Positions 14,772 through 64,000 of a stretch of DNA of 64,000 nt are shown one piece after another. Below the pieces are notes generated by a model that saw only the letters and a program-made list of their open reading frames with translations, ran no database searches and was not told the DNA's origin. Origin of the DNA: Polaribacter filamentus (GTDB taxonomy: Bacteria > Bacteroidota > Bacteroidia > Flavobacteriales > Flavobacteriaceae); assembly GCF_002943715.1 (NCBI RefSeq), contig NZ_MQUA01000004.1, forward strand, positions 124,001 through 188,000, in the 5' to 3' direction. Every line of letters starts with the position of its first letter. Within the stretch, counting starts at the first letter, position 1. The position numbers and the translations under genes are program-made.

Positions 14772-17700
14772 ATGAATTTAAAACAATTCTTCTTACTAAT
14801 CTTTTGTGTTGCTAGTTATAACGCTGTCTTTTCTCAAGCACCAGAAATTCAATTTAATCATGTTTCTACTTCAAAAGGATTGTCTCAAAGCTCTGTAATT
14901 GCAATTCAGCAAGATAAATTGGGCCAAATGTGGTTTGGAACTAGAGATGGTTTAAATAAATATGATGGCAATTCTTTTACTATTTATAGAAATATTGCAG
15001 AGGATAAAACTTCTATAAGTAACAATGATATTTTATCAATTTTAGAAGATAAAGATGGGTTTATTTGGGTTGGAACTTATAATGGATTGAATAAATACGA
15101 CCCAAAGACAAATACGTTTACCAACTATTTTCATAACAACAAAAGTAATTCTTTAAGCAATAATACCATTTGGGCAATTAAAGAAATGTCTAATGGAGAA
15201 ATCTGGATTGGAACTTCAAACGGACTTTCCATTTATAATAAAACCAAAGACTCTTTCACTAATGTTTTTCATCAAATAAAGAGTTCGCAAAGCATTTCTG
15301 GAAATCATATTCTATCTATTTTAGAAACGAAAGATCAAACAATCTGGATTGGTACCACCTCTGGTTTAAGTAAATTTAGTAACAATAAAAACGGTTATTA
15401 TGTTTTTAAAAATTACACCACTTTAAATGATAATTTCTCTCCTTTAAGCATTCAAGACTTATCAGAAAGTAGAGGGAACAAACTCTTAATTGCATCAAAA
15501 AATAATGGTGTCTTATTTTTTAACACTACCAAAAATAAAATTGAAAAATATTTGCCAGAAAACCTTCAAAATGAAGTTTCAAAAGATATAAGACAACTTG
15601 TTTTTGATGATAAAGAGGCACTTTGGATTGGAACTTATAATGGATTACATATTCTTGATAAAAAGAAAAAATTACGCACTTTAAAAAATCAAAAAAATAA
15701 CTCTAAAAGTTTAAGTAAAAATAGTATAAAATCTATTTTGAAGGATAAAAAAGGTTCTATTTGGATTGGTACTTATTATGGAGGACTTAATATTTGGGAT
15801 GATGAAAATGTAAACTTCATAAATTTTTCTGAAGCTGGTAACACAAAGAAATTAAGTTATAATGTTGTAAGTTCTATAGAAAATTACGAAAAAAAACTTT
15901 TCATAGGTACCGAGGGAAAAGGAATAAATATTTTTGACACCAAAACGAATGAGCTAAAATATTTACTTCCAGACACCAATGTAAAATCACTTTTTGTTAA
16001 CAAAAGTGAACTTTGGATTGGAACTTTTAATAAAGGAATTGCAATTTTTGATATAGAAAATAATACCTTTAAAAATGATAAGGAAACAAAAAAATTCGTG
16101 AATTATTAAGTGAAACAGGAGTTTATTCTATAGAAAAAGATCAAGAAAATACACTTTGGATTGGAACTTTTGGTTTAGGAGTAATTCACTATAACCCCTT
16201 AGAAAAAACGTTTAGAATTATTGAAAATAATAAAATAGATGATAATTCTTTGTCAAATAACTTAGTAAGATCAATTACCATAGATTCTAAAAACAATGTT
16301 TGGGTAAGTACACAAATAGGTTTAAATAAAATATCCAAAAACAACGAAATTAAACGGTATTTTTATGAAAATAATGTGGAATCTGGTGATGATATTACTG
16401 GTGTTTTTGAAGATACAAATAACGCTATCTGGGCAGGTACTAAAGCAAAAGGACTCCATAAATTAGATGGAGAAATATTTCTTAAGGTACCTCTTACAGA
16501 TAAAAAAAACCCCGTTTCTAATATTCATAGCATTCTAGAAGATGCCAACAAAAACTTATGGATAAGCACTAATGAAGGAATTATTAAATACAGTATTGAA
16601 CAAAAAAATAGCATTATTTACAACGAAAAAGACGGCTTAATTAGTAATGAATTTAATGACAACGCGAGTTTAAAAATTAAAGATTCTCAATTTTATTTTG
16701 GTGGCCCAAATGGAATTACTTCTTTTAATACCAATAATTTCACCATAAACAAATATGCTCCACAAGTTTTAATTACAGATTTCAAGATAAAGAATAAATC
16801 TCTAAAATTAAATAGTGTAAACCCTATTTTAGAAAAAACTATTGGATTTACAGATAATATTTCCTTAAATTATGAAGAAGGAAATTTCTCTATTACATTC
16901 GCAATTCCAAGTTTTATAAATTCAGAAAATAATTCGTATCAATTTCGGTTAAAAGGATTAGAAGAAGAATGGACTTACACCTCAGAAAATACTGCGAATT
17001 ATACAATTCAGAATTCGGGAGACTATACTTTCGAAGTAAAAGGTGCTAATAGTCATGGTGTTTGGAACGAGACACCAACCACTTTAAAAATAAAAGTGCA
17101 TCCTGCGCCTTGGCGCAGTTGGTGGGCTTTTCTATTGTATTCGCTTGCAATAGGTACTGCAATTAAATTTTTAATTTCAATTCAAAAATCGAAAGCACGT
17201 TTAAAGCATGAGTTAGATTTAGAATATTTAGAAAGTAAAAAAATAGAAGAAAATAACAAAGCAAAACTAGAGTTTTTTACCAATATTTCTCACGAATTTA
17301 GAACTCCATTAACATTAATACTAGGGCCATTACAACAGATTTTAACAGACTACAATGGCAGTAGTAAAATGTATAAAAAATTATTAATTGTAGATAATAG
17401 TGCAAAATATTTATTACAATTAATTAATAGGTTGATGGATTTTAGAAAGTTAGAAGAAAATCTTTTTAAACTAGAAGCTGCCGAAGGAAACATTGTAAAG
17501 TTTTTAAGAGAAATCTTTCTCTCATTTACAGAATTTGCAAAATATGGGGGTTATGAATATAATTTTCATACAGCAGAAGATGAAATTTTAGTCTATTATG
17601 ATCGCTATAAATTAGAACGTGTTTTCTATAATTTAATATCAAATGCATTTAGATATACGCCTAAAAACGGGGTCATAAACTTTAGAGTAGCACAAGAAAA

Positions 17701-18841
17701 TGGAGCAATTATAATTTCTGTTGAAGATGCTGGTATTGGAATTTCAAAAGAAAATCAAGAGAAAATATTTGATCGATTTTTTGAAATAAATAGCAGCAAT
17801 AATAAATCAGACAGTTACAATAAAGGCACAGGAATTGGTCTGTCTATTGCAAAAAATATTGTTAAATTACATAAAGGACAAATTGAAGTACAAAATAATG
17901 AAAATGATATAGGCTCTGTTTTTAATGTTATACTTCCTTTAGGAAAAGAACATTTAAACGAAGATGAAATTATAAAAGATTTTAAATTTAGTGATGACAT
18001 TTCTCAATATGTAAATCAACAAAATCTAACTCCTGTAATAATTGAAGATGAATTGACAGATAAAATAATAGATGCTGAAAAAGCGACCATTATTTTGGTA
18101 GAAGACAACAAACCGCTTCGTAAATTTATGAAAGGTTTGTTAAAAGAAAATTACAATATCTTAGAAGCTGAGAATGGTAAAATTGGCTTAAAAATGGCAA
18201 TTAAACATTTACCAAACCTTATTGTTAGTGATGTTGTGATGCCTGTTATGGTGGGTACAGAATTGTGTTCAGAAATTAAAAATAACATTAAAACCAGTCA
18301 TATTCCTATTATATTATTAACATCTAGATCTTCCTTAATATACAAATTAGAAGGTTTAGAAAGTGGTGCAGATGATTATATTAGTAAACCTTTTAACATA
18401 ACCGAATTTAAAATAAGAATACAGAACTTACTTAAATCATCTAACAGATTAAAAGAAAAATTTAGTGGAGAAGAGGCTATCTTTTCTAATGAAGTAATTA
18501 TTTCTTCTTTAGATGAGAAACTATATAAAAAAGCACTAAGTATTATTGAAGATAATATTTCTAATGAAGAATTCAATATTCCTTTCTTCTGTTCAGAATT
18601 AGGTGTTAGTAGAACCATGTTGTTCATTAAAATAAAAGCATGGAATAACTTTACACCGAATGATTTTATTCAACATTTTAGAATGAAACGGGCTGCACAA
18701 TTATTAGAACAAGGAAAAATAAACATTTCTGAAGTGAGTTATAAGGTTGGTTTCAAAAGCCCTAAATATTTCAGCAAATGCTTCTTTAAAAAATATGGAG
18801 AAACACCTTCTCAATATTCTAATAAGTTTTCAGACTTCTAA
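14772..18841 (+). pseudogene. Hybrid two-component system sensor/regulator (HTCS), one frameshift
   Basis: One-protein PUL regulator, about 1356 residues once repaired. In order: signal peptide; about a dozen propeller repeats of the type IWIGT-x-NGL; a Y_Y_Y domain; a membrane segment (WWAFLLYSLAIGTAI); histidine kinase with phospho-His841 in ISHEFRTPL; ATPase domain; receiver with Asp1154 in SDVVMPVM; and a C-terminal AraC-type DNA-binding domain (ELGVSRTMLFIKIKAW). The propeller binds an oligosaccharide in the periplasm and the AraC domain activates PUL genes. One A is missing from an A run at 16088-16094, between two propeller repeats. The gene lies upstream of the GH88-GH2-lyase operon, the likely target. 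Confidence 0.92.
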
Positions 18842-29288: not shown

Positions 29289-29344
29289 CTAATTATAGAG
29301 GACAGTTTTTATTTGCCAAGCATCCACTGATATAGATCATAAAA
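29289..29344 (+). repeat. 56-bp repeat, copy 1 (likely lyase-gene remnant)
   Basis: Matches 37367-37422 at all but about four positions. In one frame it reads FAKHPLI followed by a stop, resembling the PL38-like protein's own C-terminus VRHPLIWILE at 28.2 kb, with TGG changed to TAG. It may be a leftover C-terminus of another lyase gene. It lies 20 bp after the esterase stop. Confidence 0.5.
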
Positions 29345-31461: not shown

Positions 31462-33369
31462 ATGAGTAACTATCACATAAAACATTTAGAAGAATACTAT
31501 CAAGTTTATAGAAAATCGGTTAGCGAACCCGAAAATTTCTGGGAGGAAATAGCCGAAGAACATTTTATGTGGCGTAAAAAATGGGATAAGGTATTAAGTT
31601 GGGATTTCTCAAAACCTGAAATAAAGTGGTTTGAAGGCGCAAAACTTAATATAACAGAAAATTGCATAGACCGGCATTTAGCAACAAGAGGCCAAAAAAC
31701 GGCGATTATTTTTGAACCCAACGACCCAAAAGAAGCAGCCGAACATATTACTTATAATCATTTACACAAACGTGTCAATCAATTTGCCAATGTGTTAAAA
31801 AGCCAAGGGGTTAAAAAAGGCGATAGGGTATGTGTTTACCTTCCTATGATTCCTGAATTGGCTATTTCTGTTTTGGCTTGTGCCAGAATAGGAGCAATAC
31901 ATTCTGTGGTGTTTGCAGGGTTTTCAGCGACAGCCTTATCAACAAGAATTAATGATTCCGATTGTAAAATAGTGATTACCAGTGATGGTTCATATCGTGG
32001 AGCAAAAACCATCGACTTAAAAGGTATTGTAGATGAAGCCTTAGAAAGTTGTGAAGGCGTAGCCTCTGTTTTAGTAGTCAAGCGCATACACTCAGATATT
32101 CATATGGAATCTGGTCGCGACCATTGGTTACAACCCCTCTTAGATGGCGCTTCAACCGCTTGTGACCCTGAAATTATGGATGCTGAAGATCCGTTGTTTA
32201 TTTTATATACATCGGGATCAACAGGCAAACCAAAAGGGATGGTGCATACTACCGCAGGTTATATGGTTTATACGGCATATACCTTCAAAAATGTATTTCA
32301 ATATAAAGAAAATGATGTGTATTGGTGTACTGCCGATATTGGTTGGATTACAGGACATAGTTACATTGTATACGGGCCATTAGCTAACGGCGCAACCACC
32401 GTAATGTTCGAAGGTGTTCCAAGTTATCCAGATTTCGGACGGTTTTGGGAAGTAGTTGAAAAACATAAAGTTACCCAGTTTTATACCGCACCAACAGCCA
32501 TTAGAGCCTTGGCAAAACAAGGAATGGGTTTTGTTGAAAAATATGATTTAACCTCGTTAAAAGTATTAGGATCCGTAGGCGAACCCATAAATGAAGGAGC
32601 ATGGCATTGGTATAATGATAATATAGGAAAGAAGAAAAGCCCTATTGTAGATACCTGGTGGCAAACTGAAACGGGAGGTATTATGATTACGCCCATTCCG
32701 TTTGTAACACCAACAAAACCGACCTACGCGACTTTGCCTTTTATAGGTATTCAACCTACTTTAATGGATGAGAACGGTAAAGAAATAACAGGTAATCAGG
32801 TAGAAGGACGTTTGTGTATTATATTTCCGTGGCCAAGTATGGCGCGAACCATTTGGGGAAATCATCAGCGTTATAAAGACACCTATTTTTCAGCTTATGA
32901 AAACAAATATTTTACGGGTGATGGAGCGTTGAGAGATGAAGTTGGCTATTACCGCATAACAGGTCGCGTAGATGATGTAATTATAGTATCTGGTCATAAT
33001 TTAGGAACCGCTACTATAGAAGACGCTGTAAATGAACACCCAGCAGTAGCAGAATCTGCCATTGTAGGTTTTCCACATGATATAAAAGGGAATGCCTTGT
33101 ATGGTTATGTTATTTTAAAAGATACGGGAGAAAGCAGAGACCAAAATAACCTACGTAAAGAAATTAATCAGATTATTACAGAGCATATTGGACCAATTGC
33201 GAAGTTGGATAAAATTCAGTTTACAAGTGGCTTACCAAAAACCCGCTCAGGAAAAATAATGCGACGTATTTTAAGAAAGATAGCCCATAAAGACACCAGT
33301 AACTTAGGAGATACGAGTACACTTCTGAATCCTGAAGTTTTAAAAGATATTATGGAGAATGTACCGTAG
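31462..33369 (+). CDS. acs: Acetyl-CoA synthetase (AMP-forming)
   Basis: 635 residues, full-length. AMP-binding loop YTSGSTGKPKGMVHT, WCTADIGWITGHSY, DTWWQTETGGI, the GDGALRDEVGYYRITGR hinge and the C-terminal PKTRSGKIMRR with the lysine that is controlled by acetylation in this family. It converts acetate, ATP and CoA to acetyl-CoA in the cytoplasm. About 70 bp downstream of the symporter. Flavobacteria often keep such a cassette as a housekeeping unit, so the association with this PUL could be functional or incidental. Confidence 0.97.
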   Translation: MSNYHIKHLEEYYQVYRKSVSEPENFWEEIAEEHFMWRKKWDKVLSWDFSKPEIKWFEGAKLNITENCIDRHLATRGQKTAIIFEPNDPKEAAEHITYNHLHKRVNQFANVLKSQGVKKGDRVCVYLPMIPELAISVLACARIGAIHSVVFAGFSATALSTRINDSDCKIVITSDGSYRGAKTIDLKGIVDEALESCEGVASVLVVKRIHSDIHMESGRDHWLQPLLDGASTACDPEIMDAEDPLFILYTSGSTGKPKGMVHTTAGYMVYTAYTFKNVFQYKENDVYWCTADIGWITGHSYIVYGPLANGATTVMFEGVPSYPDFGRFWEVVEKHKVTQFYTAPTAIRALAKQGMGFVEKYDLTSLKVLGSVGEPINEGAWHWYNDNIGKKKSPIVDTWWQTETGGIMITPIPFVTPTKPTYATLPFIGIQPTLMDENGKEITGNQVEGRLCIIFPWPSMARTIWGNHQRYKDTYFSAYENKYFTGDGALRDEVGYYRITGRVDDVIIVSGHNLGTATIEDAVNEHPAVAESAIVGFPHDIKGNALYGYVILKDTGESRDQNNLRKEINQIITEHIGPIAKLDKIQFTSGLPKTRSGKIMRRILRKIAHKDTSNLGDTSTLLNPEVLKDIMENVP

Positions 33370-33550
33370 TATATTTAAAAAATATAATCTAAAACATATA
33401 TTGAAAATCAAAAATTTATAATGACACATAAATAAAGCCTGATAAAAACTATTTAAGCAAATTAATTATCCTTCTAATTTCTTGACGTAATGAATAAATG
33501 AATATATGTTATTATGATTAGTCCTTAATACTGATAGAAAGATGTGTATT

Positions 33551-33640
33551 CAATTAACTAAACTGTATATTATGAAAACCAAAACTATTACCCAATTAAC
33601 TAAACTGTATATTATGAAAACCAAAACTATTACCCAATTA
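33551..33640 (+). repeat. 42-bp tandem duplication covering an esterase start codon
   Basis: Units at 33551-33592 and 33593-33634 are identical, with six bases of a third copy. Each contains the ATG and first codons MKTKTITQ, so the gene has two equivalent starts 42 nt apart, and the leading sequence is doubled as well. A translated upstream start would put 14 extra residues before the signal peptide. Confidence 0.9.
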
Positions 33641-37257: not shown

Positions 37258-37420
37258 ATGATGCTAACTAAAACTTTTAAAAATCAATACAAAATTAAAA
37301 TTTTTAAACTGTTCTTTATTCCTTTTTAGTTTAATCTTAAGCTGTAGTTCAGAGTCAACAGAAGAGCTAATTATTGAGGACAGTTTTTATTTGCCAAGCA
37401 TCCACGGATATAGATGATAA
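37258..37420 (+). pseudogene. Truncated and frameshifted lipoprotein leader
   Basis: Starts MMLTKTFKNQYKIKIFK, then the frame changes to LFLFSLILSCSSE, a good lipobox, and soon ends. It looks like the first 30-40 residues of a surface lipoprotein whose body was replaced. The end of this stretch overlaps copy 2 of the 56-bp repeat (37367-37422), and the IS1595-type element begins 12 bp further on. The original gene cannot be identified. Confidence 0.45.
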
Positions 37421-37422
37421 AA
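37367..37422 (+). repeat. 56-bp repeat, copy 2
   Basis: Near-identical to 29289-29344. Its last two bases touch the direct repeat that flanks the IS1595-type element. In the HPLI frame an AGA codon of copy 1 is TGA here, so both copies look dead. Confidence 0.6.
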
Positions 37423-43860: not shown

Positions 43861-44250
43861 AATGGCGTGCACTATATAACCATAGGAACCACTTTTGATC
43901 AAGACTTTGTTTGGGAAACATACAACGACTTATTAAAAAGAGCCATAATCGTTGTCGAAGATAATATGCGAAATGAACAATTTGATATTGCTTTATTTTG
44001 TTCAGAATTAGGGGTAAGTAGAGCAAAGTTGTTTCTTAAGATTAAAGAATGGTCTAACTGTACCCATAACGAGTTTATCTTATATTTTAGAATGAAAAGA
44101 ACATCAGAACTATTAATGCAAAGGACAATTAATAGTTCGCAAATAAGTCAGGAAGTTGGTTTTAAGAACCCTAAATATTTTAGTAAATACTTTAAAAAGA
44201 AATTTGGGCTGACACCTTTAGAATATTCTAATAAATTTATTTTTAGTTAA
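43861..44250 (+). pseudogene. Chimera: GH95 fragment joined to HTCS AraC-domain fragment
   Basis: The first 80 bp (43861-43940) match 46348-46427 of the downstream GH95 gene with four differences and read NGVHY, then TIGTTFDQDFVWETYNDLL. The frame then continues without a stop into VVEDNMRNEQFDIALFCSEL, GVSRAKLFLKIKEW and FKNPKYFSKYFKKKFG, the AraC-type end of an HTCS regulator. The joint falls in TTAAAAAG, where both parent sequences plausibly agree. The ORF is open (127 residues from 43867), but the product would have only a DNA-binding domain with a meaningless leader. A lone DNA-binding domain could still be expressed. Confidence 0.75.
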
Positions 44251-44283
44251 ATAGTACTTTAGGAAATTAAATATAGATAAAAG

Positions 44284-44311
44284 AAGCTTACTAATTTGTA
44301 AGCTTTTTATT
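44284..44311 (+). terminator. Rho-independent terminator after HTCS fragment
   Basis: AAGCTTAC (44284-44291), 6-nt loop, GTAAGCTT (44298-44305), then a T-rich tail. It would end transcription of the chimeric HTCS fragment and insulate the GH95 leader. Confidence 0.75.
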
Positions 44312-44376
44312 ATTATATACAGACTATAAAATAATAATAAAAAAGGGTTATAACTTAACCAGTACTTGTTTAGTTG

Positions 44377-44650
44377 TCGAAAATCCGTTATTAGGGGTTC
44401 AAAAGTACATCTTTAGGATTTTTAGTTTCAAAAAAACTAAAAATGTTTGACTCCTGTAATAGCTAATAAAAAGATCAACGAAACTAAAACTGATAGAGCA
44501 TCAGTAGTTTTAGTCTAACTCCTGCTATATGTTAATAGAACTAACAATATGCCAAATGTTTGAATTATACACAAATATGAAGGTTTTAAGTATAACAAAT
44601 AACAGTAACTTACCGTTACTTTACAGTAAATAAAAATCCTCTAAAAAAAA
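44377..44650 (+). promoter_or_regulatory. Repeated ~274-bp leader, copy A (before GH95)
   Basis: Nearly identical to 50756-51028 in front of the PL6 gene, and its right half recurs at 62867 before a GH95 duplicate. It holds a perfect 11-bp hairpin (44418-44444), a second hairpin ACTAAAACTGAT with a 3-nt bulge (44483-44514), two copies of ACTCCTG (44450 and 44518), and ACAGTAA twice at 44602 and 44623, 21 bp apart, around AGTAAC-ttacc-GTTACT. Two direct repeats two helical turns apart suit an AraC-type regulator such as an HTCS. I read it as a shared promoter region. Confidence 0.7.
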
Positions 44651-44736
44651 TGTAATTGATATACATTTCTCAAAGAGAAAAGAACTGTTAATAAGCAGTA
44701 AATTTCAAAAAAAAAATAGTCACAAAAACAAAAAAA

Positions 44737-47172
44737 ATGTTCAAAATAATTAGAATTATAGTATTAATTTCTTTTTTAAGTTTTTCTAAAGGTGTTATTT
44801 CTCAAAATAATACTTCACAATTAAATGCTACACATCGTACGTATGAAATTTGGGATGATCAACCCGCCCCAAATCGAGGTAAAGACTATTCTCGAATTCA
44901 AGCGAGAGGCTATCCTACAGATTCGGATTGGGAAGCACATTCTTACCCCATTGGTAACGGATACATGGGTGCTAATATTTTTGGCAGAACGGATATGGAA
45001 CGCATTCAAATAACGGATAAAACATTAACCAACGGTGCGCCTTATGGACATGGGGGGCTGACCAATTTTGGAGAGGTTTTTCTGGAATTCGACCATTATG
45101 AGGTGAAAAATTACAAGCGCTCGCTTAATCTTAATGAAGCAATTTTAAATGTGAGTTATGAATATGAAGGTGTAAAATATACAAGGGAATATCTTGCGAA
45201 TTATCCGCAGAACGTTATAGCGATAAAGCTTAAAGCAAGCAAAAAAGCAAAGCTATCTTTAACGGTAAGTGCTGTTGTTCCTTATTTAAGAAGTGCAGAT
45301 GCATATAACCATTCAGGAGAAACTATAGAAAATATTGCAAAGTATGCCAATACAACAGCTCAAGATAATTTAATCACATTCGCTGGCAACGTTCCATCTT
45401 TCAGTCTTAATTTTGAAGGACAGGTTAAAATAATTAACGAGGGTGGAAAGCTTATAGCAAATAACGAGAATGGATCTAACGAGATTAGAATTATTGATGC
45501 CAATTCAGCAACTATATTGATTTCAACAGGAACCAATTACGAATTAAATGAGGATATTTTCCTACAAGATAGTACAGAATTAAAGTTAAATTCGAAAATA
45601 TTTCCTCATAAAAAAGTAACAGAAATAATTGAGAATGCTAGTCTTCTGGGGTATAAAAAATTAAAAGAATCGCATCTCAAAGATTACCAAAATCTATTCT
45701 CTAGGGTTAATTTAGAAGTATCCCCTTCTGTTCCTAATATTCCTACTAAAACACTGGTGGAAAATTACAAGCAAGATGCCTCTGATATTTATTTGGAAGA
45801 ATTAATGTTCCACTTTGGAAGATACTTGTTGATTGCTAGCTCTAGAAAAGGAACACTGCCAAGCACTTTACAAGGTGTTTGGAGTCAGTACCATGTCACC
45901 CCATGGTCTGGTGGTTATTGGCACAATATTAATGTGCAAATGAATTATTGGGGTGCATTTAACACGAATCTGGCAGAAACTTTTACTGGATATCAAGAAT
46001 ACTTTAACGCGTTCACACCAAAGACATATCAACATGCAAATACCTATATAAAGAAGTGGCATCCCAGTGCTTTTGTTGACAGTGAAAAAGGAAATGGTTG
46101 GGCTATCGGAACAGGCTCAAACGCTTATCATGTTAACGGATCAAGTGGTCATTCTGGTCCTGGCACGGGAGGTTTTACAACAAAACTTTTCTGGGATCGA
46201 TTCGAATTTACCCAAGATACCACCTACCTTCGAGAACAAGTGTATCCTGCTTTGTTAGGTATGAGTACCTTTTTATCGAAAACATTATTAGCTACTGAAG
46301 ATGGTAAATTATTAGTAGATCGTTCTGCATCTCCAGAGCAAAGACACAACGGCGTGCACTATATGACCATAGGAACTACTTTTGATCAAGGCTTTGTTTG
46401 GGAAACATACAACGACTTATTAAAAAGTGCTAAAATCTTAGGAACCAACGACCCTTTTTTGGAAATAGTTAGAAATCAAATAGATAAATTAGACCCTATT
46501 ATTATTGGAGAATCAGGACAGATAAAAGAATATAGAGAAGAAAAGAAATATGGAGATATTGGAGATCCAAAACACCGACATATTTCGCATTTATGCGGCC
46601 TCTACCCAGGAACCCTAATTGACTCTAAAAAGCCAGAATGGATGGAAGCCGCTAGTACAGTATTAGATTTTAGAGGTAACAAAACTACAGGTTGGGCAAT
46701 GGCGCATAGAATGAACCTTCGTGCAAGAACCAAGGAAGCAGAAAAAGCGTATGAAGTATATTCTGAATTTTTAAGAGAGCGTACACTTCCTAATTTATGG
46801 ACTGTTCATCCGCCATTTCAAATAGATGGAAACTTAGGCACAATGGCAGGTGTGGCTGAAATGTTGATCCAAAGTCATGAAGGTTTTATTGAGCTACTGC
46901 CAGCACTTCCCAAAGCTTGGCAAACAGGTTCATTTGATAGATTAGTAGCAAGAGGTAATTTTGAGGTATCATTACGCTGGAAAAATAGTAAGATATCCTC
47001 CGTTAAAATCCTCTCAAAAAGTGGTGGAAAATGCAGTATCAAATTGCCTAACACTAAAGGTGTTCAATTAAAAGATCGTATGGGTAAACAAATAGTCTAT
47101 AAAATTACCGACGAAGATATTATTGAATTTAATACTAAAAAATCAGGGAAATATTTTATTACAATTAAATAG
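44737..47172 (+). CDS. GH95 alpha-L-fucosidase/galactosidase, secreted
   Basis: 811 residues, intact, signal peptide ending VISQ. Opening motif HSYPIGNGYMGANIFG; catalytic blocks NINVQMNYWG (two Asn), SASPEQRHNG (Glu) and FQIDGNLGTMAGVAEML (Asp). Third GH95 type in the window and distinct from the one at 38.7 kb. The leader starts at the repeated regulatory region 44377-44650. At least its first 299 codons, with leader, are duplicated exactly at 63104-64000. A 29-bp repeat lies 28 bp after its stop. Confidence 0.95.
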   Translation: MFKIIRIIVLISFLSFSKGVISQNNTSQLNATHRTYEIWDDQPAPNRGKDYSRIQARGYPTDSDWEAHSYPIGNGYMGANIFGRTDMERIQITDKTLTNGAPYGHGGLTNFGEVFLEFDHYEVKNYKRSLNLNEAILNVSYEYEGVKYTREYLANYPQNVIAIKLKASKKAKLSLTVSAVVPYLRSADAYNHSGETIENIAKYANTTAQDNLITFAGNVPSFSLNFEGQVKIINEGGKLIANNENGSNEIRIIDANSATILISTGTNYELNEDIFLQDSTELKLNSKIFPHKKVTEIIENASLLGYKKLKESHLKDYQNLFSRVNLEVSPSVPNIPTKTLVENYKQDASDIYLEELMFHFGRYLLIASSRKGTLPSTLQGVWSQYHVTPWSGGYWHNINVQMNYWGAFNTNLAETFTGYQEYFNAFTPKTYQHANTYIKKWHPSAFVDSEKGNGWAIGTGSNAYHVNGSSGHSGPGTGGFTTKLFWDRFEFTQDTTYLREQVYPALLGMSTFLSKTLLATEDGKLLVDRSASPEQRHNGVHYMTIGTTFDQGFVWETYNDLLKSAKILGTNDPFLEIVRNQIDKLDPIIIGESGQIKEYREEKKYGDIGDPKHRHISHLCGLYPGTLIDSKKPEWMEAASTVLDFRGNKTTGWAMAHRMNLRARTKEAEKAYEVYSEFLRERTLPNLWTVHPPFQIDGNLGTMAGVAEMLIQSHEGFIELLPALPKAWQTGSFDRLVARGNFEVSLRWKNSKISSVKILSKSGGKCSIKLPNTKGVQLKDRMGKQIVYKITDEDIIEFNTKKSGKYFITIK

Positions 47173-47200
47173 TCGGTAAATTATCTGTTTGAAAATAACT

Positions 47201-47229
47201 CAGAATATAAATAACCAAAAACTTTAGAA
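47201..47229 (+). repeat. 29-bp direct repeat, copy 2
   Basis: Identical to 19039-19067. It is followed by an ATG at 47231, while copy 1 is followed by a truncated binding-protein gene. Confidence 0.7.
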
Positions 47230-47230
47230 T

Positions 47231-47374
47231 ATGAACTCAATTAGAAACGAACCTTTAAATAAAAATTATGACATAAAATCTACAGCACTTCAAAAAAATA
47301 AACCCAAAAAAAAGGGAAGCTTTTTTGGCTTTGTAAAACAATCAATTAAATGTAGTTATAACATAACTAATTAA
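47231..47374 (+). CDS. Small basic hypothetical protein, weak
   Basis: A 47-codon frame right after the 29-bp repeat gives a Lys/Asn-rich peptide containing KPKKKGSFFGFVKQSIK. No family recognised. It may be the start of a lost gene. The following stretch 47375-47681 shows no coding signal; it holds only AT-rich sequence. Confidence 0.25.
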   Translation: MNSIRNEPLNKNYDIKSTALQKNKPKKKGSFFGFVKQSIKCSYNITN

Positions 47375-47681
47375 CTGCAAAAAGATAAATAAAGTTGTCA
47401 TATTTATTAGAAATCATAGTGGTACAAGGGAATATATTAGATATAAATAATACCATTTCGGTTGGTTTTCCAGACAGTTAAGTCTCCTTAAAATAAAACC
47501 AAGAATACAAGTAGGAGCAATTTGTTTTACTTTAGATTATTTTCCAACCATAACAAAAAACAAATTTGATTCATAAATATCCAAAAAAAGCAAATACGCT
47601 TCATATAAAATTAAAAAACATGCTAATAGGAACCAATGCGTCTATGCCAGAACCAAATCTTGACTATAAAAACACAACAAA

Positions 47682-49226
47682 ATGAAAAATCTAATTAACA
47701 ATACTTTATTTTTAATTTTGAGCCTAGTGATAGTATCGTGCTCATCTACACAGAAAAAAAATGCTTCTGAGAAAATAACATCAAAGAAAAAACCAAACAT
47801 CATTTACATTCTAGCGGATGATTTAGGCTATGGGGATTTGTCTAGTTTTAATGAGAATGGAAAAATAAAAACCCCCAATTTAGACGCTATGGCTTCTGAA
47901 GGGATGATGTTTACAGATGCACATACCTCATCATCTGTATGCACACCAACTCGATACGGTATTTTAACTGGGCGTTATAATTGGCGTTCTAGATTAAAAA
48001 GGAGTGTGTTGAGGGGTACATCGAAAGCATTAATACCTAATGATAGAAGTACACTTGCCTCTATTTTAAAAGCATCGGGCTATCAAACGGCTTTCATTGG
48101 AAAATGGCATTTAGGCTGGGATTGGGCAAAAAATGAAAATAATGAAATAGATTTTAGCAAAGAGGTTACCAATACACCCAACGATTTAGGTTTCGATTAT
48201 GCATATGGGCATTGCGGTTCTTTAGACATGGCACCTTATGTATATGTTGAGAATGGTTTTGCCACTCAAATACCTACGGAATTAACTGAAAGTAAATCAA
48301 AATACGGTTGGTGGAGAAATGGATTAACATCTGCTGATTTTGTACATGAAGATGTGACTCCTAATTTTTTTAGACGCGGTATTAAGTATGTACAAGAACA
48401 AGCTACAGCAGAAAAGCCTTTTTTTTTATACTTACCCTTACCCTCGCCACATACACCCATTTTACCTACCGAAGAATGGCAAAATAAAAGTGGCTTAAAC
48501 CCTTATGGTGATTTTGTAATGATGTTTGATGATTATGTAGGGCAATTGCTAAAAGCAGTAAAAGATGCCGGAATCGAAGAAAACACCTTAATTGTTTTTA
48601 CTAGTGATAATGGATGTTCACCTGCTGCAAAGATTGATGAATTAACTGCAAAAAACCATTCTCCTAGTTATACTTTTAGAGGCCATAAAGCAGATATTTT
48701 TGAAGGCGGACATCGGGTTCCTTTTATCGTTAAATGGCCCGCATCTGTAAAGGCAGGTTCAGTAAGCAATCAAACCATTTGTACTACCGATTTTTTTGCT
48801 ACCAGTGCTGAGATCGTAAACTATAAAATGAAAGCTAGTGATGGTGAAGACAGTTTTAGTATGATGCCTTTGTTAGAAGGAAAAGATAGGAGTACAAGAG
48901 AAGCTACCATTCATCATTCTATCAATGGTAATTTTGCTATCCGTAAAGGCGATTGGAAATTAATAATGACACCAGATTCTGGCGGGTGGAGTTACCCTAA
49001 CCCTAAGAAAGATAAAGACTATATTAAAACACTTCCAAAAATTCAATTGTATAATCTAGATACAGATATTGCAGAAGCAACTAATGTACAGGCTGATTAC
49101 CCAGAAAAAGTAAGTGAATTAAAACAACTATTAACGCAACAAATTCTAAAAGGAAGAAGTACCCCAGGCCTAGATCAGAAAAATGATACTGGCAATACTT
49201 GGAAACAACTTTCATGGATGAATTAA
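47682..49226 (+). CDS. Sulfatase (S1 family), lipoprotein
   Basis: 514 residues, intact. Lipobox LVIVSC near residue 20. [18 protein letters not shown] metal site, SSSVCTPTRYGILTGRYNWR with the formylglycine Cys87 in canonical C-T-P-T-R, FIGKWHLGWDWAK, LPLPSPHTPILPT, FTSDNGCSP, FEGGHRVPFIVKWPA and IRKGDWKLIM. It removes sulfate esters from sugar in the periplasm. It resembles arylsulfatase-A-like PUL enzymes. About 150 bp downstream is a good terminator, so it ends a transcript. Confidence 0.95.
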   Translation: MKNLINNTLFLILSLVIVSCSSTQKKNASEKITSKKKPNIIYILADDLGYGDLSSFNENGKIKTPNLDAMASEGMMFTDAHTSSSVCTPTRYGILTGRYNWRSRLKRSVLRGTSKALIPNDRSTLASILKASGYQTAFIGKWHLGWDWAKNENNEIDFSKEVTNTPNDLGFDYAYGHCGSLDMAPYVYVENGFATQIPTELTESKSKYGWWRNGLTSADFVHEDVTPNFFRRGIKYVQEQATAEKPFFLYLPLPSPHTPILPTEEWQNKSGLNPYGDFVMMFDDYVGQLLKAVKDAGIEENTLIVFTSDNGCSPAAKIDELTAKNHSPSYTFRGHKADIFEGGHRVPFIVKWPASVKAGSVSNQTICTTDFFATSAEIVNYKMKASDGEDSFSMMPLLEGKDRSTREATIHHSINGNFAIRKGDWKLIMTPDSGGWSYPNPKKDKDYIKTLPKIQLYNLDTDIAEATNVQADYPEKVSELKQLLTQQILKGRSTPGLDQKNDTGNTWKQLSWMN

Positions 49227-49376
49227 TGAAAACTAGTAAAATGGAATATACAACATTTTCAGTATTATTTAACGAGCAAGTACCCGGGTATTAATCTAAA
49301 TTTTTAATATTCAAAGAAAGACAATCTTCGATTGTACATTAAATTTATATCGTATTATTTGAATTAGTTTGTTGAG

Positions 49377-49405
49377 AATGAGAAGAGCTAGTTTATCTTC
49401 TCATT
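49377..49405 (+). terminator. Rho-independent-like terminator after sulfatase
   Basis: Perfect 10-bp stem AATGAGAAGA / TCTTCTCATT around a 9-nt loop, 150 bp after the sulfatase stop, followed by a short T/C tract. Confidence 0.65.
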
Positions 49406-49485
49406 TTCAATATTAAAGAATACTGCCATAGTTAAAAATAATAAATGCATACTAAAGCATTATTTTATCAAGGTTACTTCGTTTA

Positions 49486-49650
49486 ATGAGAAATTACTTA
49501 AAAAAAGCTTTACAGATTGTTGCGTTAAATATTTCAAATAAACAATTTGATGTTAATATGTTTGCTAGAGAGTTGGGCGTGAGCCGAACATTACTATTCA
49601 CGAAAATTAAAGCTTGGGCAAATAAAGACCGTTGCAAAAAGCAAACTTAA
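49486..49650 (+). pseudogene. HTCS AraC-domain remnant
   Basis: Reads [18 protein letters not shown], then [21 protein letters not shown], the start of an HTCS AraC-type domain. Sequence identity is lost at 49627, where an IS5-type element begins, and the N-terminal sensor is also missing. It is a different gene from the 43.9-kb fragment (the two differ at many positions), so a second dead HTCS. Confidence 0.7.
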
Positions 49651-50755
49651 TTATTTTTACTTTTTAGAATTCCCTTTTTTTTAGCTACAACATCGATTAT
49701 GCTATTTTTTTTCTATTTTAAGTGAGTAAATTCCTTTTTTAGGCTTCATTTTTCCTTAATTTTTACAATTAGACGCAAATATCCCTGGACTTCGATATAA
49801 ATTGTAGCACATTTCCTCCATCAAATTTTGTGTATGCATTTTTTTCATTCCTCTATATCTTGCAATTCCAACTTTAAACCATAATTTTATTCCTCCAAAA
49901 GTACGTTCTACTTTAAACCTTGTTTTTCCTATTAATTCATTGAATCTAGTTTCTCATTTTGTTAATGGTTTATTTTTTACTACTTTTTTAAGGAGGTGAT
50001 TCTTTAAATTACGCTTATTTAAAATTTTACTATTTTTATTTGATTGATACCTTTTATCTGCCTTTAGAGGGATGTCTTTTGGCAATACCACATTTACAGT
50101 TTCTAGAACTTCTTCCAAATTTGCAATCTCATTTTTGCTGGCAGTTGTAGTTAGTACCCTTAGAACAAGACCTTCGTTATCGGTTACATGGTGCTTTTTA
50201 AACCCAAAATGGTACGTTCCTCTTTTCTTTAACCATGTACCCTCTTTATCGACACTATCTGGATATTCTTTGTGTACTTCTACTTGGTCTGCAAAGCGGT
50301 CTTCGGTTACCTTAAAGTTTGTTTTTCCTTTTGGTCTAAGTGGAGTCTCTGTTACACTAGCGTCTATTCTTAAACCTGTTTTTACAATAATATTATGTAT
50401 TTCTAGCTGTTTATTTATGGAAGCAAATAATTTTTCGAAGGTTTGTGTTTAGGTTAATGCGTTTCTAAATCTACTTAAAGTGCTATAATCTAGAGCAACC
50501 TGCTCAATGGTCATACCACAAGAATAACTAAAGGATAGACTGTCATTTATTCGATCTTCAACTTTAGAATCGCTTAATCCATACCAACTTTGTAAAAGAC
50601 ACATTTTAAAAAGCAATAACCCATCATAAGAAGGCTTGCCAGTGGCACTTTTTCCTTTTGAATAGTCTTTATTTATTAGGATAGAAATCGTATCCCAATC
50701 GATAAGGGTGTTTATTTGAGTAAAAAATGTCTTTTTAATTTTTCTTGCTCGTAAA
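49627..50755 (-). mobile_element. IS5-family element, degenerate
   Basis: Left boundary marked by loss of HTCS homology at GACCGTTGCAAAAAG, probably one terminal repeat. The transposase (minus, about 50753 to 49756) reads GKPSYDGLLLFKMCLLQSWYG, YSTLSRFRNALT, a stop (TAA for Gln), TGLRIDASVTETPLRPKG, PLTK, a second stop (TGA for Trp), then VERTFGGIKLWFK and MEEMCYNLYRSP. Both nonsense changes are transitions. The N-terminus ends abruptly where the repeated leader begins, so the right end is gone. It cannot encode an active enzyme. Confidence 0.8.
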
Positions 50756-51028
50756 TCGAAAATCCGTTATTAGGGGTTCAAAAGTACATCTTTAGGATTT
50801 TTAGTTTCAAAAAAACTAAAAATGTTTGACTCCTGTAATAGCTAATAAAAAGATCAACGAAACTAAAACTGATAGAGCATCAGTAGTTTTAGTCTCACCC
50901 CTGCTAAATGTTAATAGAACTAACAATATGCCAAATGTTTGAATTATACACAAATATGAGTATTTTAAGTATCATAAGTAACAGTAACTTACCCTTAACT
51001 TTACAGTAAAGTAATATCCTCTAAAAAA
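50756..51028 (+). promoter_or_regulatory. Repeated ~274-bp leader, copy B (before PL6)
   Basis: Same hairpins and ACTCCTG/ACAGTAA elements as at 44377-44650, with a few substitutions near the 3' end. ACAGTAA copies are 22 bp apart here (50981 and 51003), one base more than in copy A. It abuts the truncated IS5-type element on the left and leads to the PL6 gene 54 bp later. Confidence 0.7.
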
Positions 51029-51081
51029 CATGAAACATGAAACATGAAACAAAATTACAAAAGAAAAACAAAACCTTAAAT

Positions 51082-54000
51082 ATGAAAAAACTAGTACTTT
51101 TAGTCTTATTTTTTGCAATTGTATTTGTTACAAATGCTCAAGTATCTGTGAACTCTGTAAGTGAGTTTAACACGGCCCAAAGCAGCGCTTCTTCAGGAGA
51201 TACCATTATCTGGGAAGACGGAAACTACAGCAATGTAGATTTAACATTAAGTAAGAATGGAATTACTCTAAAAGCTGAAACTCCCGGAGGAGTAGTTTTT
51301 TCAGGAAATTCAAAAGCTAGAATTTCAGGCGATTATATTACCTTCTCAGGGTTCCAATATAGAGAATGTAGTGAAATGAGTGTTAGATTTGCTGGGGATC
51401 ACAATCTGGCAACACATATCAATATGGTTGATAATACTGGCTACAGAGCTATGCAGATAGACGATAATACACAATACAATGAGATTTCTTATTGTAATAT
51501 CGAAAATGTTAGAGGTGGTAGTGCTCTTATTCAGATTAATGTATCAGACTCGCAACCTGGATATCATAAGGTGAGGTACACCTCATTTCTAAATTTACCT
51601 GGCGAGGGAGGTGATTATGGACGTGAACCCATCAGAATAGGATATTATGCAACTCGCTTATATACTTCTCGCACTACTGTTGAGTATTGTTACTTTAATA
51701 ACACCCAAGACGCTGATAATGAAACGATGTCTATAAAATCTCTTGAAAATGTATTAAGGTATAACACTTTTGAGAATAATGGAGGTGGTGAGTTGGTTTT
51801 TAGGCATGGAAGCAGAAATCAGGCTTACGGCAATTTTTTCATAAATACGGGTAGAGGTATTAGAGTAAAAGAGGGGCAAAATCATTTTATTTATAATAAT
51901 TATTTTTCCACAAGAGAGAAACCTTTACGGATAGTATATTCAGGTATTGATCCTGTTGATAGCGTTCATATTCTACATAATACATTTTATGAGTCTGGAA
52001 CACTTGATATAGATGATGATAGGATTAATAATATTGTTTTTGCTAATAATATTTTTAAAAGATCCAGTGGATCCATTGTTAATTATAGTCGTACTTTTAT
52101 AAACAATATTATTGATGGGAGTTTTGGCGTGCCAGTGCCAGATGGGAATTTGCAAACAGACCCGCTGTTAGAGGTTAATGGTGATGGATATTATGGTTTA
52201 TCCAGTTCCAGTCCTGCAATAGATGCATCAAGCGCAGATTACACTGCTATTCCTAACATTCCAGGCATTGATAATGACTACAACCTTCTTAAGGATATAA
52301 GCAGACAACCAAGACCATTAAATAAAACCTCAAAGGATATCGGTTCTGATGAATTTACAAGCGGAACCATCACCAACCGACCTTTAAGCTTGTCTGATGT
52401 TGGACCATCTTATATTTCACGACTAACTATTTGTGGTGTTACAGCAAGTAACGACGATGGTAATGTGATAGAAAACGTACTTGATGGCTATTCTAATACA
52501 CACTGGTCATCAAACGTAAATGGTGTTGAAGCAATTTTTGATTTATGCGAAATATACAATGTAAAAGATTTAAGCATAGCTTGGTTAAATGGGGATATAA
52601 GATCGTCATTATTTGATATAGAGGTTTCTACAGATAATTTGAACTGGACGAATGTATTCTCTGGACAATCAGGTGGAGCTTCTGTTGAATTAGAAGATAT
52701 TGACATTGCTGATTCAGATGCCAGATATGTGAAATATATTGGTAATGGAAACACGGTTAATGCCTGGAATTCAATAACAGAGCTACAAATATATGGTGAT
52801 CCAATATATGGTGATCCAATAGAAAACGGAAGCCTTCTCTCTATAGACGATTCATATGTACGAGGAGATTCTGGTGCAAATGTTAATTATAATGGTCAAA
52901 AATTAGTGATCAAGCTTGGTACATTAGGGGAAGGAACTATACGGGAATCATTTCTAAAATTTAATGTATCTAGTTTACCATCTAATACAGGCTCTGCAAA
53001 GTTAAGAGTAACTGTTACTGATACTGATTTAAATAATTTTGAAGCCCTTCTAGTATCTGATAATAGTTGGTCAGAAACGTTAATAACTTGGGACAATAAG
53101 CCACTTGCTACTACAACTTCATTTGGTATTCAATCTAAAACCACATCAAGCAGTCAAACCTTAGAATGGGACATCACCACGGCAGCATTAGCACAATCAG
53201 AGGTTGATGGGTTTATTACTATAAAAATAGTAGGTAAAATTGCAGATGTTCAGAGCGATATTGCTAGTAAAGAAACGGCAACTAGTGATGCGGAAAAACC
53301 GGCCATTGTTTATGAAGAAATATCACCATCACTTTCGATTTGCGTTGCTACAGCAAGTAATGACGACGGTAATGTAATAGAAAACGTACTTGATGGCTAT
53401 TATAATACACGCTGGTCATCAAACGTACATGGTGTTGAAGCGGTTTTTGATTTATGCGAAATATACAATGTAAAAGATTTAAGCATAGCTTGGTTTAATG
53501 GGGATATAAGATCGGCATTATTTGATATAGAGGTTTCTACAGATAATTTGAACTGGACGAATGTATTTTCTGGACAATCAGGTGGAGCTTCTGTTGAATT
53601 AGAAGATATTGACATTGCTGATTCAGATGCCAGATATGTGAAATATATTGGTAATGGAAACACGGTTAATGCCTGGAATTCAATAACAGAGCTACAAATA
53701 TATGGTGATCCAATAGAAAACGGAAGCCTTCTCTCTATAGACGATTCATATGTACGAGGAGATTCTGGTGCAAATGTTAATTATAATGGTCAAAAATTAG
53801 TGATCAAGCTTGGTACATTAGGGGAAGGAACTATACGGGAATCATTTCTAAAATTTGATGTATCTAGTTTACCATCTAATACAGGCTCTGCAAAGTTAAG
53901 AGTAACTGTTACTGATACTGATTTAAATAATTTTGAAGCCCTTCTAGTATCTGATGATAGTTGGTCAGAAACGTTAATAACTTGGGACAATAAGCCACTT

Positions 54001-54498
54001 GCTACTACAACTTCATTTGGTATTCAATCTAAAACCACATCAAGCAGTCAAACCTTAGAATGGGACATCACCACGGCAGCATTAGCACAATCAGGGGGTG
54101 ATGGGTTTATCACTATAAAAATAGTAGGTAAAATTGCAGATGTTCAGAGCGATATTCATAGTAAAGAAACGGCAAACAGTGATGCGGAAAAACCTACAAT
54201 TATATATGGGTCAAGTTTAGGTAGTCAAAAGCAGGTTTTAGAAGTGCTAGACAACACTGCTGAAAATATATTAAAAGACCTACTTGTGTATCCAAACCCA
54301 TTTAACGATAAGATTTTTATTAAAAACCTACAAAATGGGATGGATGTTAAAATATTCAATTCAATGGGACAATTAATGATGGAAACTGTGTATAAAGATT
54401 ATCTCAATATTTCTTCATTGCATTCGGGTATGTATTTTTTAAAAATCACAGATGAAGTGAATGCCCAAAGTAGAACTATAAAAGTTATTAAGAATTGA
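51082..54498 (+). CDS. PL6-family polysaccharide lyase with tandem F5/8C-like and DNRLRE-like modules and type IX secretion tag
   Basis: 1138 residues from the ATG at 51082, which gives a clean signal peptide (MKKLVLLVLFF, ending TNAQ); the ATG at 51037 adds a charged leader. Residues about 25-430 are a PL6 (chondroitinase-B type) beta-helix, with Lys in MSIKSLENVLRYNTF and Arg in LVFRHGSRNQAYGNFF as the base/acid pair. Then come two near-identical copies of a discoidin-like domain (WSSNVNGVEAIFDLCEIYNV) plus a DNRLRE-like jelly roll (ESFLKFNVSSLPSNTG, LITWDNKP). The end LLVYPNPFNDKIF to IKVIKN is a Por secretion tag. Outer-surface or secreted alginate/uronan lyase; PL6 also includes dermatan lyases. 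Confidence 0.9.
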   Translation: MKKLVLLVLFFAIVFVTNAQVSVNSVSEFNTAQSSASSGDTIIWEDGNYSNVDLTLSKNGITLKAETPGGVVFSGNSKARISGDYITFSGFQYRECSEMSVRFAGDHNLATHINMVDNTGYRAMQIDDNTQYNEISYCNIENVRGGSALIQINVSDSQPGYHKVRYTSFLNLPGEGGDYGREPIRIGYYATRLYTSRTTVEYCYFNNTQDADNETMSIKSLENVLRYNTFENNGGGELVFRHGSRNQAYGNFFINTGRGIRVKEGQNHFIYNNYFSTREKPLRIVYSGIDPVDSVHILHNTFYESGTLDIDDDRINNIVFANNIFKRSSGSIVNYSRTFINNIIDGSFGVPVPDGNLQTDPLLEVNGDGYYGLSSSSPAIDASSADYTAIPNIPGIDNDYNLLKDISRQPRPLNKTSKDIGSDEFTSGTITNRPLSLSDVGPSYISRLTICGVTASNDDGNVIENVLDGYSNTHWSSNVNGVEAIFDLCEIYNVKDLSIAWLNGDIRSSLFDIEVSTDNLNWTNVFSGQSGGASVELEDIDIADSDARYVKYIGNGNTVNAWNSITELQIYGDPIYGDPIENGSLLSIDDSYVRGDSGANVNYNGQKLVIKLGTLGEGTIRESFLKFNVSSLPSNTGSAKLRVTVTDTDLNNFEALLVSDNSWSETLITWDNKPLATTTSFGIQSKTTSSSQTLEWDITTAALAQSEVDGFITIKIVGKIADVQSDIASKETATSDAEKPAIVYEEISPSLSICVATASNDDGNVIENVLDGYYNTRWSSNVHGVEAVFDLCEIYNVKDLSIAWFNGDIRSALFDIEVSTDNLNWTNVFSGQSGGASVELEDIDIADSDARYVKYIGNGNTVNAWNSITELQIYGDPIENGSLLSIDDSYVRGDSGANVNYNGQKLVIKLGTLGEGTIRESFLKFDVSSLPSNTGSAKLRVTVTDTDLNNFEALLVSDDSWSETLITWDNKPLATTTSFGIQSKTTSSSQTLEWDITTAALAQSGGDGFITIKIVGKIADVQSDIHSKETANSDAEKPTIIYGSSLGSQKQVLEVLDNTAENILKDLLVYPNPFNDKIFIKNLQNGMDVKIFNSMGQLMMETVYKDYLNISSLHSGMYFLKITDEVNAQSRTIKVIKN
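52461..54180 (+). repeat. ~0.9-kb tandem duplication inside the PL6 gene
   Basis: Copy 1 starts near 52461 and copy 2 near 53370, offset 909 bp, falling to 894 bp after a 15-bp extra GGTGATCCAATATAT in copy 1 (GDPIY inserted). Most of the span is identical between copies, with only scattered substitutions. Each copy encodes a discoidin-like and a DNRLRE-like module. Confidence 0.9.
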
Positions 54499-62866: not shown

Positions 62867-64000
62867 ATCAGTAGTTTTAGTCTAACTCCTGCTATATGTT
62901 AATAGAACTAACAATATGCCAAATGTTTGAATTATACACAAATATGAAGGTTTTAAGTATAACAAATAACAGTAACTTACCGTTACTTTACAGTAAATAA
63001 AAATCCTCTAAAAAAAATGTAATTGATATACATTTCTCAAAGAGAAAAGAACTGTTAATAAGCAGTAAATTTCAAAAAAAAAATAGTCACAAAAACAAAA
63101 AAAATGTTCAAAATAATTAGAATTATAGTATTAATTTCTTTTTTAAGTTTTTCTAAAGGTGTTATTTCTCAAAATAATACTTCACAATTAAATGCTACAC
63201 ATCGTACGTATGAAATTTGGGATGATCAACCCGCCCCAAATCGAGGTAAAGACTATTCTCGAATTCAAGCGAGAGGCTATCCTACAGATTCGGATTGGGA
63301 AGCACATTCTTACCCCATTGGTAACGGATACATGGGTGCTAATATTTTTGGCAGAACGGATATGGAACGCATTCAAATAACGGATAAAACATTAACCAAC
63401 GGTGCGCCTTATGGACATGGGGGGCTGACCAATTTTGGAGAGGTTTTTCTGGAATTCGACCATTATGAGGTGAAAAATTACAAGCGCTCGCTTAATCTTA
63501 ATGAAGCAATTTTAAATGTGAGTTATGAATATGAAGGTGTAAAATATACAAGGGAATATCTTGCGAATTATCCGCAGAACGTTATAGCGATAAAGCTTAA
63601 AGCAAGCAAAAAAGCAAAGCTATCTTTAACGGTAAGTGCTGTTGTTCCTTATTTAAGAAGTGCAGATGCATATAACCATTCAGGAGAAACTATAGAAAAT
63701 ATTGCAAAGTATGCCAATACAACAGCTCAAGATAATTTAATCACATTCGCTGGCAACGTTCCATCTTTCAGTCTTAATTTTGAAGGACAGGTTAAAATAA
63801 TTAACGAGGGTGGAAAGCTTATAGCAAATAACGAGAATGGATCTAACGAGATTAGAATTATTGATGCCAATTCAGCAACTATATTGATTTCAACAGGAAC
63901 CAATTACGAATTAAATGAGGATATTTTCCTACAAGATAGTACAGAATTAAAGTTAAATTCGAAAATATTTCCTCATAAAAAAGTAACAGAAATAATTGAG
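62867..64000 (+). repeat. Exact duplicate of 44500-45633
   Basis: Offset 18367 bp; every position I compared along the 1134 bp, from TCAGTAGTTTTAGTC to the window end, is the same, including leader, start codon and 299 codons. It begins after one base of the IS30 remnant junction and runs past the window. Confidence 0.9.
63104..64000 (+). CDS. GH95 alpha-L-fucosidase/galactosidase, 5' part of a duplicate
   Basis: First 299 codons, identical to the GH95 gene at 44737, with signal peptide MFKIIRIIVLISFLSF and HSYPIGNGYMGANIFG. The catalytic region lies beyond the window. Its own leader copy (62867-63017) keeps the second hairpin, one ACTCCTG and the ACAGTAA pair but lacks the first hairpin and the second ACTCCTG. 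Exact identity suggests a recent duplication or an assembly artefact. Confidence 0.85.
   Translation, partial: MFKIIRIIVLISFLSFSKGVISQNNTSQLNATHRTYEIWDDQPAPNRGKDYSRIQARGYPTDSDWEAHSYPIGNGYMGANIFGRTDMERIQITDKTLTNGAPYGHGGLTNFGEVFLEFDHYEVKNYKRSLNLNEAILNVSYEYEGVKYTREYLANYPQNVIAIKLKASKKAKLSLTVSAVVPYLRSADAYNHSGETIENIAKYANTTAQDNLITFAGNVPSFSLNFEGQVKIINEGGKLIANNENGSNEIRIIDANSATILISTGTNYELNEDIFLQDSTELKLNSKIFPHKKVTEIIE

Follow-up and report, generated by a model that had tools for sequence, protein, structure and literature searches.

Copies of a leader with a putative L-fucose operator precede unlike polysaccharide genes in Polaribacter filamentus

We analysed a stretch of 64,000 nucleotides from Polaribacter filamentus (the window, C4:124001-188000, where C4 is contig NZ_MQUA01000004.1 in a genome of 4.28 Mb and 15 contigs; positions without a contig are those of the window), in which a near-identical non-coding leader region precedes non-homologous genes. 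Leader A (44377..44652, forward strand) stands before a GH95 gene (44737..47172, forward) that matches Pfam GH95 and the alpha-1,2-fucosidase 7znz (E 2.7e-99). Leader B (50756..51032, forward) stands before a gene for a PL6-type lyase with CBM-like domains (51082..54498, forward; PF14592, with alginate and PL6 lyases among its matches in PDB), whose start at 51082 is our reading of an open reading frame listed from 51037. An internal 0.87-kb tandem duplication in the lyase gene (95.6% identity, 52429-53300 and 53338-54194) spans F5/8-type domains. A and B are 94.6% identical over 277 bp, which bears out a sequence-only reading that had called them almost the same. Half leader C (62867..63019, forward) matches the right half of A at 100% from 44500 on, in a match of 1134 bp that runs to the window's end, and again leads into GH95; for the genes behind both A and C the nearest named solved relatives are alpha-1,2-fucosidases. 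A genome-wide search for the leader, covering the best 40 of 96 candidates, added leader D (C4:193122-193393, 88% identical to A), which lies 5 kb past the window before SusC/SusD genes, and a 38-bp partial match at C4:117864 in the promoter of a fuc operon. All four leaders lie on contig C4 and share one orientation, with a long open frame and its start codon downstream. We also searched for leader DNA in relatives: among 166 genomes of the genus (E 0.001, best 4 candidates per genome) 26 match, outside P. filamentus itself only over stretches below 50 bp that we take as AT-rich chance, and among 397 genomes of the family (E 1e-6, best 2 candidates per genome) there was no match outside its own genome.

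The partial match points to what the leaders have in common. C4:117864 lies between the gene of an AraC-family regulator (C4:116954-117853, which precedes leader A on this contig by about 50 kb) and an operon for an aldolase, L-fucose isomerase, an FGGY kinase and L-fucose mutarotase; the regulator is flanked on its far side by aldehyde dehydrogenase and FucP. NCBIfam scores in bits, with cut-offs in brackets, are 1070 (775) for L-fucose isomerase, 584 (280) for FucP, 214 (141) for fucose mutarotase and 718 (500) for aldehyde dehydrogenase. Every one of the four leaders contains a version of the 38-bp module from this gap, on the forward strand at 44556..44593 in A, 50935..50972 in B and 62923..62960 in C. 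Allowing up to 3 mismatches, the genome holds six full modules: those of the fuc operon, C4:122698, leaders A, B and C (each with 0 mismatches) and leader D (2 mismatches). The site at C4:122698 precedes a broken gene with a sulfatase tail; a SusC start considered for this gene was rejected, as it has no Pfam match and blastp returns the sulfatase tail alone (48%).

The module is conserved beside the regulator in relatives. Twelve relatives in the genus hold the regulator at 58-69% identity, and among the matches listed the gap between araC and aldolase carries the module, with a clear site in 11 and a weak one in L091; in at least 11 of the 12 the module core is repeated before the neighbouring aldehyde dehydrogenase. 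A strict core pattern, RTGTTTRAATTRKAYAYA, written after the relatives' sites had been viewed, matches 16 of 166 genus genomes, namely all 13 with the regulator (E 1e-50 or better) and 3 of the 153 without it, against 2 of 166 for the reversed pattern. The three matches in genomes without the regulator (G004, G068, G141) fall inside 527-codon open frames, and in G113 the sole strict match lies in a 404-codon frame while the fuc site is found at one mismatch. Further intergenic core matches precede a second aldehyde dehydrogenase (G007, G050, G090), unrelated genes (G049, G153) and an HTCS (hybrid two-component system) gene (G150). A pattern widened after the sites of P. filamentus had been viewed, RTRTTTRAATTRKAYAYAAA, matches 15 of 349 family genomes from 237 genera: 9 of 13 in which the regulator was called (E 1e-60, best 6 candidates per genome) and 6 of 336 in which it was not, with 8 matches for the reversed pattern; among those six, G377 has its match in an 804-codon frame, and G402 before a short gene that we read as having a sulfatase-like tail. 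We then searched for the full module, at up to 3 mismatches, in 26 genomes (P. filamentus, 24 relatives with the regulator, and G402). It is present in 22 of them (0 for the reversed control) and stands beside the regulator in 19 of the 24 relatives, usually as one site, compared with six here. Second sites occur in G090, before FBPase, and in G164, on what appears to be a decayed aldolase start; the sole match in G150 precedes an HTCS, and G371, G416, G436 and G462, whose regulators are 46-57% identical, have none. The module pattern was shaped partly on the leaders, which therefore match it by construction; the contrast in the number of sites is the result.

As a separate observation, cores or modules of the fuc type lie upstream of HTCS genes in G486 (C46:219705 and 219940; L149, L153), G150 (C10:63952; L105) and G508 (C1:217667; L143), a hint that an HTCS may receive input from the fucose regulator in these relatives.

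A matrix made from the sites of the 12 relatives, with P. filamentus left out, is free of leader letters. Run over both strands of 142 kb, it ranks the fuc operon first (35.2), followed by C and A (21.1 each), B (20.3), C4:122698 (17.1) and D (16.1), with the next site at 11.1; the leaders thus take ranks 2-4 and 6. The four leaders are copies from related events, and their scores are not four independent tests.

We also compared the spacing to a candidate promoter box. TAnnTTTG is the Bacteroidetes -7 element; counted from the start of the operator, such a box begins at 59-60 bp in 11 of the 12 genus relatives and at 8 of 9 other loci examined. Candidate boxes in P. filamentus occur at 59 bp before the fuc operon (5 of 6 positions), 60 bp at C4:122698 (5), 60 bp in A (TTACTTTA, 44616..44623, forward; 4, weak), 61 bp in B (TAACTTTA, 50996..51003, forward; 5) and 60 bp in D (4, weak); the leader offsets of 60-61 bp fit the spacing, but random places reach 4 of 6 in 19% of cases and 5 of 6 in 3.7%. 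If these boxes are right, transcription would start about 5-25 bp before the end of the shared sequence, which would make the promoter common to the copies and leave every gene with a 5' untranslated region of its own in the unshared part.

We consider it likely that the leader is a fucose-responsive promoter-operator region, spread to GH95, PL6 and SusCD genes by block duplication and by recombination near insertion sequence copies. In the presence of L-fucose or a derivative, the AraC-family regulator would bind the 38-bp module and activate RNA polymerase at the box about 60 bp from the operator start, with transcription predicted to begin shortly before the shared leader sequence ends. Block duplication and homologous recombination near the insertion sequences would have brought the region before GH95 (twice), the PL6 lyase and SusC/SusD, genes that would then answer to the release of fucose. 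The sequence-only reading had suggested a portable promoter that places genes under one regulator; this holds in outline, since the operator-like L-fucose module upstream of the start codon in all four leaders supports a shared regulator, with 'portable' standing for block duplication and recombination near insertion sequence copies and not for a self-moving unit.

Several points weigh against the fucose-responsive reading. Both the core and the module patterns were written after sites had been viewed, the leaders of P. filamentus included, so that the leaders match them by construction, and there is some circularity in the match in all 13 regulator-holding genomes. Over 30 random first-order runs of 284 kb each, the matrix maxima averaged 14.2 and the highest was 20.6; one leader score alone is therefore not beyond chance. 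The operator of D carries its two mismatches, the candidate -7 boxes of A and D are weak and tie with other places (two in the scanned range of A), and distances from operator to start codon are unequal (90 for fuc, 181 for A, 147 for B, 252 for D). The GH95 locus of G164 (5280 bp) lacks the operator at up to 3 mismatches. The aldolase best fits the model of rhamnulose-1-phosphate aldolase (216 bits, cut-off 170), and the kinase best fits a rhamnulose-type NCBIfam model, far below its cut-off, and passes none; the regulon may therefore exceed fucose alone.

Other elements within the leader allow a different regulator to be considered. The leader might be an HTCS-controlled promoter, in which a pair of ACAGTAA repeats is the HTCS site, derived from an order HTCS-leader-SusC, and the fuc-like module serves as a second input or is left over as a relic. 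Sites of HTCS in Bacteroides are direct repeats averaging 21 bp apart (PMC3878776), and the ACAGTAA repeats (44602..44629 in A, forward) stand 21-22 bp apart in A, B and C, as the sequence-only reading had noted for all copies; in D the second repeat reads ACAGTAT. HTCS tails lie upstream of A (43867..44250, forward, with the AraC-type domain) and upstream of the IS5 element before B and D (49480..49624, forward, cut by IS5 before B), from which the ancestral order HTCS-leader-SusC is likely. Yet no intact HTCS lies beside a leader: over the 142 kb covered by tblastn with the window's HTCS as query, there are one HTCS split in two frames and four tail fragments. Genome-wide, exact pairs of ACAGTAA (spacer 13-15) are confined to A, B and C (reversed control 1), and one base of the pair is shared with the candidate -7 box. 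Control by an HTCS through the ACAGTAA pair, which the sequence-only reading had put forward, is thus the less supported assignment, and we regard it as unlikely. The split HTCS (14772-18841) consists of two open frames in different phase and is either a broken gene or a sequence error.

The remaining motifs proposed as common to the copies fared unevenly. Leader A has inverted repeats at 44418-44444 and 44483-44514, in keeping with the two hairpins that had been described, but the RNA fold predicted for 44377-44560 does not reach significance (z -1.84; of 200 shuffles, 13 fold equally well or better), and an Rfam scan of 44200-44900 gave only two sub-threshold matches (E 0.17 and 0.79). The two ACTCCTG boxes 68 bp apart, also said to be shared, are found in A only (44450 and 44518): the second reads ACCCCTG in B, C has the second box alone, and D has no exact box.

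The arrangement of the leaders is tied to a block duplication. Positions 44500..51008 are repeated at C4:186867-193373 (62867-69373 in window numbering) at 98.94% identity over 6509 bp, a block comprising half of leader A, the GH95 gene, a sulfatase gene (47682..49226, forward), an HTCS tail, a truncated IS5 and most of leader B or D. Since C opens this 6.5-kb copy, it is not an independent leader; the recurrence of the right half at 62867 before a GH95 copy, noted earlier, is exact, but as the left end of a duplicated block. The block copies differ at 14 positions over 44500-49624 and at 34 inside IS5, the latter clustered near 49966-50052.

Copy B was described as abutting a truncated IS5, and this is the case: an IS5-family element without its right end (49625..50756, reverse strand; family assigned from the copy before D) is fused to leader B. 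About 145 bp of the right end are missing from the IS5 of both B and D, and two longer IS5 copies on C4 continue for about 145 bp and end in an inverted repeat. The junction of IS5 and leader in B and D falls at TCG, which is also present in one full IS5 copy and in leader A. On its left side the repeat stops where IS5 is broken in B and D, and this edge may therefore be no natural end; the right edge fades at a different point in each leader pair. By contrast, an IS30 remnant proposed beside C was not confirmed, as the 43-residue peptide before it matches no NCBIfam model.

Identity between the leaders forms a patchwork. A and B differ at 14 of 262 aligned positions and are identical over aligned positions 1-140, B and D differ at 24 of 262, and A, B and D are identical over positions 1-57, which suggests recombination between leaders. 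A stretch between the GH95 and sulfatase genes (47245..47393, forward) shows 92% identity to the 150 bp leading up to the start of SusC in D. A search for a donor by way of the SusC of D found best relatives only 35-36% identical. Behaviour as a self-moving unit does not fit these data, with C arising from the 6.5-kb block and B and D sharing one IS5-leader junction. A small non-autonomous mobile element resembling a MITE (miniature inverted-repeat transposable element) would account for several copies near insertion sequences, but the ends of A lack terminal inverted repeats and a target-site duplication, the left edge derives from IS5 breakage, the right edge fades differently in each pair, and the four copies are confined to one contig; we find a MITE very improbable.

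Apart from the leaders, C4:198496-203228 (L007:12496-17228) resembles a composite transposon, with two IS3-family copies, 99.85% identical over 1333 bp, around a sulfatase gene. This unit is inserted in an HTCS fragment whose uninterrupted site lies at 49271-49624, with a junction repeat of 3-4 bp.

A region so rich in fragments (the split HTCS, HTCS tails, sulfatase pieces and insertion sequence copies) could also hold passive debris, in which duplications and deletions left pieces of leader before genes by chance of breakpoint and some or all copies control nothing. The changed operator and boxes of D and the decayed copies of the fuc promoter in G090 and G164 are consistent with this, but each of the four leaders is followed by a long open frame that shares its orientation, and A, B and C keep the letters of the module. 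We judge debris quite unlikely as the general explanation, and possible mainly for D.

The neighbourhood contains further repeats. A second shared stretch before unlike genes, at 33182-33480 (82.6%) and C4:203698-204130 (79.5%), precedes genes for a SASA-type esterase and for an alginate lyase, and on its left it consists of the end of an acetate-CoA ligase gene. An exact 42-bp tandem duplication (33551-33640) lies at the start of the SASA esterase gene, and a 56-bp non-coding repeat (94.6%; 29289-29344 and 37367-37422) lies upstream of genes for a sodium:solute symporter and an IS1595 transposase.

We suggest tentatively, as a proposal a little short of an even chance, that a sugar regulon grew by copying of a whole promoter region: genes for fucose-containing glycans and an alginate-type lyase may have left a decaying HTCS control and come under an intracellular sensor of L-fucose. 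The bacterium probably eats seaweed sugars, and judging from the enzyme families, one signal released as fucose could call up enzymes for two brown-algal polymers; such cross-substrate induction would suit brown-algal walls, in which both polymers co-occur. If confirmed, this would be a concrete case of regulon growth through promoter copying, with six modules compared with one in most relatives, in which polysaccharide genes join a monosaccharide regulator and the two-component sensors that belonged to them decay. It would also supply, for this family, an operator of an AraC-type L-fucose regulator that is open to testing. The regulator shares 79% identity with that of G486, from another genus, and at most 69% with those of its own genus, and the assembly has an estimated contamination of 5.96%; contig C4 may therefore be laterally acquired or misbinned.

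The literature covered, mostly outside subscription journals, contained no description of such an operator in flavobacteria and nothing relevant on portable promoters in polysaccharide loci, alongside general work on mobile promoters. Mobile promoters and promoter propagation in prokaryotes were reportedly treated by Matus-Garcia, Nijveen and van Passel in 2012 and by van Passel and colleagues in 2014, works cited in PMC9208149 and PMC8049555. The leaders resemble these in that a non-coding promoter region recurs before unlike genes of a single genome, but differ in bearing what appears to be the operator of a specific sugar regulator and in having spread at least partly by block duplication within one gene cluster. 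In Bacteroides, FucR belongs to the GntR family and RhaR to the AraC family, and each regulon is described as a single operon (PMC3878776). The present system is similar in that a sugar-specific local regulator adjoins its catabolic operon, and different from that FucR in that the putative fucose regulator is of AraC type, not GntR, and that polysaccharide genes appear to have joined its regulon. With the HTCS regulons of Bacteroides, where the HTCS adjoins susC, the leaders share direct repeats spaced by about 21 bp before SusC/SusD and enzyme genes (PMC3878776); here, in contrast, the nearby HTCS genes are broken or reduced to tails, and the conserved module is that of the fuc operon.

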